DNA of 64,000 bases. It comes from Flavobacteriaceae bacterium (GTDB lineage: Bacteria > Bacteroidota > Bacteroidia > Flavobacteriales > Flavobacteriaceae). This document shows positions 22,815 through 25,555 of the stretch, in pieces. The stretch is taken from positions 1-64,000 of the forward strand of contig JAFMLQ010000001.1 of assembly GCA_017852075.1 (NCBI GenBank), written 5' to 3'. Both the position numbers and the translations under genes were made by a program. The stretch's first letter is position 1. Each line of letters begins with the position of its first letter. The notes beneath the pieces are model-generated. The model was not told the origin of the DNA and made no database searches. It was given only the letters and a program-made list of their open reading frames with translations.

Positions 22815-22823
22815 AGAAAAAAA

Positions 22824-23112
22824 GCAGGCCTATAAGCCGGATTCTGTCGTGTCTTATCATTTATCTGGATGTAAAATTACTCTTACATTCTAGCCGCCTA
22901 CCCTTCTACATCGAACGAGCTGCTCTCAAATTGTAGAACTACTTGGCGTTGCACCGCATAGAGTTTACCTGATTTCACTACAGCCGAACTGTACTTGCTT
23001 TCTGTTGCACTGGTCCGCTCCGCCGAAACGGAGGACGGGTGTTACCCGCTATGCTGCTCTGTGGTGTCCGGACTTTCCTCTCCTGTAAAACAGGAGCGAT
23101 AAGATGGCCTGC
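22824..23112 (-). ncRNA. rnpB: RNase P RNA (bacterial type A)
   Basis: Read on the minus strand, the conserved 5' core GAGGAAAGTCCGGACACC and the AGAGCAGCATAGCGGGTAAC region are present. The 3' conserved GACAGAATCCGGCTTATAGG is also there. The ends pair as P1 (GCAGGCC at 23106-23112 with GGCCTGC at 22824-22830), and hairpins CTCCTG-TTTTA-CAGGAG and CTCCG-TTTC-GGCGGAG match P3 and P12. The RNA is the catalytic subunit that trims the 5' leader of tRNA precursors. A T-rich tract follows the 3' end as a likely terminator. Exact ends are good to a few bases. Confidence 0.96.
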
Positions 23113-23116
23113 AGGT

Positions 23117-23201: not shown

Positions 23202-24278
23202 ATGGATGCTTTTGTTGTATCAGCTTTAAAATACAGACCAACTTCTTTCTCTGAAGTAGTAGGTCAGGAAAGCATTACTCAAACCCTAGAAAACAGTCTT
23301 AAAACCAATCAATTAGCACAGGCACTTTTATTTTGTGGTCCTCGTGGTGTTGGAAAAACTTCTTGTGCTCGGATTTTAGCCAGACAGATCAACAGTAGTG
23401 ATCCTTCTTCCACAGAGGATTTTGCTTTCAATATTTTTGAATTAGACGCCGCCTCAAACAACTCGGTAGAAGATATTCGGAAAATTAACGAACAGGTGCG
23501 TATTCCTCCTCAGGTAGGGAGTCATAAAATCTACATAATCGATGAGGCCCACATGTTATCCAATGCAGCTTTTAATGCTTTTTTAAAAACACTAGAAGAG
23601 CCTCCAAAACATGCCATTTTTATTTTGGCTACTACTGAAAAAAACAAAATCATACCTACCGTGCTTTCCCGTTGTCAGGTGTATGATTTCAAACGGATTT
23701 CCGTGCAAGAAATTCAAGCCTATCTTGTTAAAATTGCATCCAAACGGAACCTTCAGTTCGAAGAAAATGCTTTGTATCTTATCGCTCAAAAAGCAGAAGG
23801 AGCACTGAGGGATGCGCTCTCTATTTTTGATCGTATGGTCAGTTTTACCAAAGGCAATCTTTCTGCTTCTGCAGTTGCGGATAATCTTAATTTATTAGAT
23901 CACCAGACCTATGCTTCGCTTGGCACACTTATCATCCAAAATAATATCCCTCAACTACTAACTAGTTATGACGAATTGATCAAACGCGGGATTGATAGTA
24001 TGCAATTTATAAACGGTCTCGGTGATCATTATAGAAATTTAATGCTGGCTAAAGATTCCAAGACAGTAGCATTAATGGAAGTAGGTGAAACGATTAAAGA
24101 GGCTTATCAAAAGGATACCGAAGGTCTCTCAACACAGTATTTACTTGATGCTATTGCCCTAATCAACAACTGTGAGTTACATTTTAGGAATGTAAAAAAT
24201 AGAAGGGTACACGTCGAACTTGCGCTCATGCAACTCGCTTCACTCCATTTCAATGGAGAAAAAAAAAAGGTTACATAA
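23202..24278 (+). CDS. dnaX: DNA polymerase III subunit gamma (short in-frame product of dnaX)
   Basis: Without frameshift, translation ends at TAA 24276-24278, two codons after the lysine run (GEKKKVT). The 358-residue product keeps ATPase domains I-II and collar domain III and loses the tau-specific linker and C-terminal domain. This is the same division as gamma in E. coli and Thermus. The region between Walker A and LDAASNN has no CxxC pairs, so the zinc module of proteobacterial DnaX is missing. Whether this product is really made depends on slippage frequency. Confidence 0.7.
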   Translation: MDAFVVSALKYRPTSFSEVVGQESITQTLENSLKTNQLAQALLFCGPRGVGKTSCARILARQINSSDPSSTEDFAFNIFELDAASNNSVEDIRKINEQVRIPPQVGSHKIYIIDEAHMLSNAAFNAFLKTLEEPPKHAIFILATTEKNKIIPTVLSRCQVYDFKRISVQEIQAYLVKIASKRNLQFEENALYLIAQKAEGALRDALSIFDRMVSFTKGNLSASAVADNLNLLDHQTYASLGTLIIQNNIPQLLTSYDELIKRGIDSMQFINGLGDHYRNLMLAKDSKTVALMEVGETIKEAYQKDTEGLSTQYLLDAIALINNCELHFRNVKNRRVHVELALMQLASLHFNGEKKKVT

Positions 24279-24958
24279 TTCCAGCGTCTGAATACAATTC
24301 TAAATCAAAAGCCCAAACAAATAACCCTACTCCTCTCACTACAGAAAAATACGAAAAATCTGTACAAAAAACTGAGGTTGAACCCCCAATAGTAGAAGAG
24401 AAGGAGCCCTCTTACAAAGAGGTTTCTACGGCTCACAACACTACAACAGAAGATACATCAAAACCCATTGCACCTAAGAAAACTGAGTACAAAGCAGCTG
24501 CTCCTGTATCTAGTTTTTCATTATCCAGTATTGCCTTAAAAAAAGCTGCTAACAAAGTTACCCACGAAAAGGTTCTGGAAAAAGAAAAGCCCAAAGATGC
24601 CTTTACACTTGGAAATCTTAAGATACTTTGGCAAGACTATATCGATACACTAAAGAAAAAGGGGAAACTCAATATCGCATCCATACTGAGTATGAATAAT
24701 ATTGAACTTGAGGATACTGACCAAATTGTATTTACCGTGGCCAATGAGATGAATAAAGTAGAAGTAAATCAAGAGATGGAATTTCTTCTCCCTTTTCTCA
24801 GAAAACGACTAAATAATTTCGAGATCAAACTAAAATTGATCGTAACGGAAACCGTGAAGGAAGAAACCGTGTTTTCTCCTACCGAAAAATATCAATACCT
24901 TGTAAAACTCAATCCAACTTTAGAGGAGTTGAGAAATAAATTTGATCTTGATTTCTAA
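23202..24958 (+). CDS. dnaX: DNA polymerase III subunit tau (full-length, requires -1 shift at A10)
   Basis: DnaX is the motor subunit of the clamp loader and links the polymerase cores to the helicase. Reading frame 1 covers the AAA+ part: Walker A GPRGVGKT (46-53), Walker B IIDEAH (112-117), SRC sensor at 156-158, and domain III to residue 358. At ten A residues (24259-24268) a shift of -1 opens a stop-free frame that continues GYIIPASEY, a low-complexity Thr/Pro/Lys linker and a folded C-terminal domain (LKILWQDYIDTLKKKGK onward) to 24958, about 585 residues in all. That length suits flavobacterial DnaX. The track ORF 24692-24958 is the end of this frame, not a separate gene. Confidence 0.85.
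24258..24270 (+). promoter_or_regulatory. A10 slippery site in dnaX
   Basis: The run G-A10-GG is read GAA AAA AAA AAG in frame 0. Adding one A (transcript slippage) or moving the ribosome back one base both give GAA AAA AAA AAA GGT, entering the long frame. No strong downstream hairpin and no purine-rich Shine-Dalgarno-like stimulator was apparent, which favours polymerase slippage over ribosomal shifting. Confidence 0.7.
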
Positions 24959-24970
24959 CAAAATTATCTC

Positions 24971-25555
24971 ATGTTAGGTCTTAAACTTCCCACAGATCCT
25001 CGTTGGATAAACGTAGCCAAACAAAACTTAGAAGAGGTTTTAACAGATCACGCTTATTGCGAGCAAAAAGCTGCCAGCTATGCCATATCACTAATTATTG
25101 GATTTCCAGAAAATACAGAGTTGGTTTCGGCAATGACTGATCTAGCTCAGGAAGAGATGAGTCATTTTAAGATGGTTCATGATTTGATAATTGAAAGAGG
25201 GTACACACTGGGTAGAGAACGAAAAGACGAATATGTTTTGCAATTGCTTTCTTTCTTCCCTAAAGGAGGCTCTAAAAATGATCATTTGATTCACAAACTC
25301 CTTTGTGCTGCACTTATTGAAGCGCGGAGTTGTGAACGATTTCGAATTCTTTCAGAAGAGTTAACCGATAAGAAATTGCGCTCTTTTTACCGAAAATTAA
25401 TGATCAGTGAGGCCAACCATTACACTCTGTTCTTGAAATTGGCACGAAAATATGGTACTTCAAAAGAAAAAGTAGACCAAAAATGGCAGTCTTTACTTGA
25501 CTTTGAGGCTGATGTGATTAAACAGCTGGGAAGTAAAGAATCGATCCACGGCTAA
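24971..25555 (+). CDS. miaE: tRNA 2-methylthio-N6-isopentenyl adenosine-37 hydroxylase-like protein MiaE
   Basis: MiaE is a di-iron, ferritin-like monooxygenase that hydroxylates the isopentenyl group of ms2i6A37 in tRNA. The 194-residue protein has the helical bundle with iron-ligand carboxylates: EEMSHFKM gives an ExxH pair, IEARSCERF a Glu, and SEANHYTLF a second ExxH. The start MLGLKLPTDPRW is the family start. It lies 12 bp after dnaX on the same strand and is probably co-transcribed. The family assignment is strong; the substrate rests on family. Confidence 0.9.
   Translation: MLGLKLPTDPRWINVAKQNLEEVLTDHAYCEQKAASYAISLIIGFPENTELVSAMTDLAQEEMSHFKMVHDLIIERGYTLGRERKDEYVLQLLSFFPKGGSKNDHLIHKLLCAALIEARSCERFRILSEELTDKKLRSFYRKLMISEANHYTLFLKLARKYGTSKEKVDQKWQSLLDFEADVIKQLGSKESIHG

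Follow-up and report, generated by a model that had tools for sequence, protein, structure and literature searches.

Does a dnaX gene whose frame stops directly after a run of ten A's, at the end of clamp-loader domain III, make one protein or two, and how might the second be made when its distinctive part lies open in a different frame? The question is put by the window, the whole 64,000-nucleotide stretch of DNA that was analysed, which belongs to a draft genome from a metagenome (79 contigs, 89% complete) of a Flavobacteriaceae genus; of the named relatives, Flavobacteriaceae bacterium UBA980 is the nearest found, its gamma being 92% identical. The argument is built around the following features:

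23202-24278, + strand: zero frame of dnaX, encoding gamma (358 aa; AAA+ ATPase, lid and domain III), from the ORF listing
24243-24258, + strand: hairpin with arms CTCCAT (24243-24248) and ATGGAG (24253-24258) and the loop TTCA (24249-24252), from folding and covariation in the family
24259-24268, + strand: A10, the putative slippage run, from the sequence and from runs of A9 or longer at 288 of 304 Bacteroidia dnaX loci
24263-24269, + strand: A AAA AAG heptamer in the zero frame, a possible ribosomal -1 site, from the sequence
24269-24958, + strand: tau-only extension in the -1 frame, 229 codons and a stop, from the open frame, PRK14971 and protein-like evolution
24275-24278, + strand: ATA-A of the (Y/F)IIP motif, which hides a TAA and here supplies gamma's own stop (24276-24278), from codon counts
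24578-24955, + strand: folded C-terminal domain of tau, probably domain V-like, from alignment and an AlphaFold2 model

The zero frame ends GAA AAA AAA AAG GTT ACA TAA. A sequence-only reading of the locus had placed the stop of this frame right after the run and the end of gamma at the end of domain III, and both placements hold: the run and the stop lie where they were said to lie, and the DnaX match extends through domain III to its end (Pfam places the ATPase lid together with domain III at 221-348). The gamma half scores 367 bits against TIGR02397 (dnaX_nterm) in a profile search and matches the E. coli gamma/tau chains at 1.7e-55. Read in the -1 frame, the run is followed by GGT TAC ATA ATT CCA, that is, GYIIP (GYIIPASEY...); this frame, which the same reading had called open and sensible in sequence, continues for 229 codons counted after the run, to a stop at 24956-24958, and one added A joins gamma and extension into a tau of 585 residues, the size that had been estimated. 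Against the gamma/tau model PRK14971, the zero-frame product aligns over 1-369 and the -1 extension over 398-612; since the two halves fit consecutive parts of one model, this is one gene in two frames.

The extension is laid out with a variable linker first and an end domain second. Between the window and its nearest relative its dN is 0.318 and its dS 1.278; within the genus pN/pS is 0.60 overall, with a linker that varies freely and a last part that is about 60-80% conserved. By these substitution patterns the tau extension in the window's genus is evolving as protein. The end domain was modelled by AlphaFold2 with a pLDDT of 79.6; a fold search with it gave weak matches only (an SirA-DnaA domain I entry and a DciA entry), and Pfam and PDB sequence searches with the tau end gave no useful match. 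In E. coli, domain V of tau, which has a KH-like fold, binds the polymerase; the modelled domain is probably domain V-like. An independent start for the C-terminal part of tau was considered and set aside: with ATG, GTG and TTG starts listed, the -1 frame holds only an 88-aa ORF from 24692, and re-initiation could therefore yield just tau's end.

Two neighbours of the gene may be recorded here. An RNase P RNA (RF00010, 200 bits; window 22817-23115, - strand) is oriented head to head with the gene, some 90 bp before its start codon; the next ORF after tau (window 24971-25555, + strand) resembles by eye a MiaE-type tRNA hydroxylase.

How widely is the run kept? Alignment in relatives, which had been proposed as a check, finds A10 in 31 and A11 in one of the 32 dnaX loci of the window's genus. 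The comparison was extended to 304 Bacteroidia loci: these 32, 143 from further Flavobacteriaceae (nearly one per genus), 64 sampled at the level of the order (partly overlapping Flavobacteriaceae) and 65 at the level of the class. A run of at least nine A's stands at the gamma/tau boundary in 288 of the 304 (141/143, 58/64 and 57/65 in the three wider samples), and it is exactly A10 in 230, although these loci are related and the counts accordingly not independent; between species its length ranges from A8 to A14. The run is also seen in 25 of 29 additional loci of Bacteroidia, part of them in genomes already sampled. Only six other runs of A9 or longer occur in the 308,828 upstream bases of the same genes, and the boundary run is therefore more than chance; it is kept in 33 of 38 genes with more than 45% GC. 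Among 50 outgroup dnaX genes, nearly all of them from other phyla, 48 have no run of A9 or longer in codons 330-450. The sequence-only reading knew of no established case in Flavobacteriia; by these counts the site is almost universal in Bacteroidia, and the A-run device appears to be common to nearly the whole class. One locus, L034, is alone among 175 from Flavobacteriaceae in having no A run of at least seven (its boundary reads GTG GAA AAG TAA), which is either a real loss or an assembly error.

The run is constant; the frame encoded around it is not. In the genus, gamma occupies the zero frame with tau at -1 in 23 of the 32 loci, the two-ORF layout met in the window, and tau is in frame in the other nine. 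Over all samples tau lies in the zero frame at 182 loci, needs one more A at 91 and two more (or one fewer) at 11, proportions that are biased because the order- and class-level loci were partly chosen by score or frame length, while the family sample has about one locus per genus. Whatever the frame state, both of the frames that do not lead to tau are closed within 10 codons at 262 of 284 loci. Closure within six codons exceeds that of synonymous codon controls for each of them (83% against 50% for one frame, 88% against 35% for the other), an excess of the pooled data, the signal per gene being modest (median p 0.3-0.4). It is the closure of the second frame that is telling, because a -1 ribosomal shift gains nothing from a stop there.

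By codon counts, a single conserved element accounts for most of the hidden stops: in the (Y/F)IIP motif the codon of the first Ile is ATA, and the A that follows completes a TAA. ATA is used for this Ile in 80 of 83 loci of the family and in 19 of 23 in the genus, compared with 24-26% elsewhere. Where tau is in frame, the element closes another frame; in the window, it ends gamma. On a FastTree phylogeny of 229 rows, many of whose inner branches are weak, the three frame states need at least 35 changes, 24 of the changes falling inside Flavobacteriaceae and three inside the window's genus; the tau-frame label alone forces 15 on well-supported branches. On this tree, the encoded frame of dnaX has flipped repeatedly.

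An inverted repeat lies directly 5' of the run, its last base being the one before the first A. As RNA it would fold as CUCCAU-UUCA-AUGGAG, a 6-bp stem with a 4-base loop (-6.7 kcal/mol) that abuts the run. The sequence-only reading had noticed no stimulating hairpin; with regard to the downstream side it was right, no conserved structure 3' of the run being detected (in all four sets of loci the 48 nt downstream give z of about -0.1 to -0.2 against synonymous shuffles), but the upstream hairpin had escaped it. Taken as a single sequence the window's hairpin is unremarkable (z -1.43), and the case for it rests on the family. Stems of at least 6 bp, with the 3' arm no more than 3 nt from the run, are present in 25/32 loci of the genus and in 106/142 other family loci, and in 12.4% of comparison windows elsewhere in the same genes; stems of at least 8 bp are found in 54% of the other family loci as against 1.4% of such windows. 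In 101 loci the 3' arm ends at the base just before the run and the loop has four bases. In Flavobacteriaceae the folding energy is about two standard deviations below that of synonymous shuffles in which the protein is kept (z about -2). In-register pairing over the family is 77% (at most 72% in column shuffles, 35-65% in slid registers), and parsimony counts 49 changes on both sides that keep pairing, compared with 18-25 in slid registers. The common family form is CTCTATCA-CTTT-TGATGGAG; the window's genus has the same 3' arm, with a 5' arm that has been rebuilt 4 nt closer. The pairing statistics thus describe a hairpin that is conserved with compensatory changes across Flavobacteriaceae. 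It is absent from part of that family, and beyond it conservation is not clear (the signal there is weak); the hairpin is therefore not essential to the device. The hairpin was also considered as an intrinsic terminator and is ruled out as one: read on the + strand it precedes A's rather than T's, and read on the - strand it lies after the T run instead of before it.

By what means, then, might two proteins be produced? We regard programmed transcriptional slippage, making both gamma and tau from the one dnaX gene, as probable; that the production of the two is programmed, as the sequence-only reading proposed, is strongly supported by the comparison of loci. A stretch of nine A's or T's is enough for efficient slippage by RNA polymerase, whose RNA-DNA hybrid is 9-10 bp long (PMC5009743; PMC1088944). 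The enzyme would transcribe the template's T10 as A10; with a hybrid about as long as the run, the transcript could realign without loss of pairs, and the outcome should be a mixture of mRNAs with 8, 9, 10, 11 or more A's. In the window's species, mRNAs with A10 and A9 would end within a few codons and specify gamma-like products; those with A11 and A8 would continue into tau. The nascent hairpin would probably form at the RNA exit while the run sits in the hybrid, and might raise slippage by pulling on the hybrid or by blocking backtracking. (A note on orientation: tau here requires an insertion or a two-base deletion, while the stem-loop of the IS element taken up below promotes deletion.) If several transcript lengths are made anyway, gain or loss of a single A in the DNA would be close to neutral, and the repeated flips of the frame would be explained by this. 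A hairpin, A10 and stops in the unused frames together make up the dnaX slippage cassette that one would expect from what is published about slippage. We also lean, with less assurance, toward a broader formulation: Bacteroidia slip on A10 nearly class-wide, Flavobacteriaceae have added a covarying hairpin, and the frame of the template is about neutral and has been flipped dozens of times.

Why the polymerase rather than the ribosome, as the sequence-only reading also preferred? Runs of A9 and longer are kept in nearly all of these genes, though A AAA AAG would be enough for a ribosome; the closure extends to both alternative frames and is not confined to the -1 frame; tau is found in all three frames across species; and no 3' stem-loop is conserved. 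A -1 ribosomal frameshift at the heptamer, reversed relative to E. coli in that shifted ribosomes would make tau, has in its favor that the exact E. coli heptamer stands in frame in 23/23 gamma-frame loci of the genus and that a ribosomal site reversed in this way, with stimulators, has been put forward for Chlorobium phaeobacteroides (PMC5009743); it might also act alongside slippage of RNA polymerase. We nonetheless think it improbable: besides the missing downstream structure, the closed third frame and a run much longer than it requires, there are species with tau in the third frame or with no heptamer, and the upstream position of the structure is left unexplained. The GGAG beside the run, moreover, sits 4 nt from the heptamer and within the hairpin; the Shine-Dalgarno-like element of E. 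coli dnaX is more distant from its heptamer. (Anticodon patterns for tRNA-Lys, intended to tell the two kinds of slippage apart, caught Asn and other tRNAs and neither Lys tRNA.)

Granted a real run and real slippage, the hairpin might still have no part in it, being a by-product of coding or serving some other role. That A9 and longer runs slip hairpin-free in Thermus and E. coli (PMC5009743) and that the hairpin is not conserved outside Flavobacteriaceae would suit this, and we hold it to be unlikely rather than far-fetched; against it stand the exact abutment and 4-base loop in so many loci, the synonymous-shuffle signal with its compensatory changes, and the relocation of the 5' arm in the window's genus. 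Could run length instead toggle tau between cells, as DNA-level phase variation? Homopolymer length does differ between species, but A10 dominates, and stops and hairpin are arranged for the use of all mRNA lengths; moreover, tau should be essential for replication, an off state would presumably be lethal, and the proposal is very improbable. Least credible of all is an assembly or sequencing error, the main alternative in the sequence-only reading, or a decayed gene: homopolymers are error-prone and the genome is a metagenome draft, but the same A10 and broken frame recur in 22 other loci of the genus and independently elsewhere in the class, and the -1 extension evolves as protein. A one-base error is thereby excluded as the source of the broken frame, and programmed slippage of RNA polymerase remains the preferred reading.

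Some of the loci surveyed are arranged otherwise. The A run is missing from eight Bacteroidales-type dnaX loci (L078, L081-L087). Their zero frame ends at codon 375-385, and tau is continued in the +1 frame over another 186-266 codons; the two frames overlap by as little as about 30 nt, and the overlap contains a conserved AGGCAATCNC(A/G)GG(A/T)G (in L083, for example, TAACCGCCCCCGTCAGGCAATCACGGGAGAAATAA, up to the zero-frame stop). The arrangement has the look of a +1 ribosomal frameshift, a candidate second route to gamma and tau, and its AGG-C recalls the Ty1 site. At L357 and L391, in very reduced genomes of 0.3 and 0.5 Mb, dnaX stops around codon 345-353 and no A run of at least seven lies nearby, as if a gamma-like protein alone were left. 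L366 and L367, in endosymbiont-sized genomes (0.6 Mb), have A11 followed at once by TGA, with the third frame open for 130-133 codons; their relatives have dnaX in frame with a shorter run.

How much of this has been seen before? A GeneTack cluster of 17 two-ORF dnaX genes from 12 genera, nine of them with ten A's, has been described, and transcriptional realignment was proposed for them (Antonov et al. 2013, PMC3711429). The window's gene shares with them the poly-A and a zero-frame gamma with tau at -1, and by its sequence it is of this known two-ORF architecture. The text of that paper mentions neither a hairpin nor hidden stops, and neither flips of the frame nor a spread across the class. 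In Thermus thermophilus, dnaX slips at A9 to give gamma and tau at about 1:1 (PMC5009743; PMC1088944); it too has an A run at the gamma/tau boundary, near stops in the other frames and two products per gene, and its orientation, with tau in frame, is that of most Flavobacteriaceae, whereas the window has tau out of frame, A10 in place of A9, and an additional upstream hairpin. E. coli dnaX shares the heptamer and the making of gamma and tau from one gene; in the window the products are reversed (gamma is the zero-frame and not the frameshift product), and there is neither a 3' stem-loop nor a spaced Shine-Dalgarno-like element. For the hairpin, the closest likeness is to a Roseiflexus IS element, in which a stem-loop directly 5' of the slippery motif, also with a 4-base loop, enables slippage (Penno et al. 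2015, as related in PMC5009743). In that account, the motif is U5C5, one base is deleted, the GC-rich stem is required and the product is a transposase; the window has A10, a weaker stem whose function is putative, and a housekeeping gene. A literature search found no paper on dnaX slippage in Bacteroidota, although such an absence is not proof, and the near class-wide spread, the frame flipping, the hidden stops and the covarying hairpin seem to be new.

If the broader formulation is true, a cellular housekeeping gene would here be using slippage assisted by a stem-loop, and the family would offer a conserved natural test case for the tuning of RNA polymerase slippage by a nascent hairpin. 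For annotation it carries a warning: split dnaX genes of this kind are not pseudogenes. Reviews have it that dnaX frameshift signals are missing from most bacteria, which may produce no gamma (PMC3290774), and that gamma made by frameshifting seems restricted to enterobacteria (PMC4456610). The keeping of the site in nearly all of the Bacteroidia genes surveyed suggests, rather, that this class has retained a gamma-making device and that gamma probably has a selected job there.
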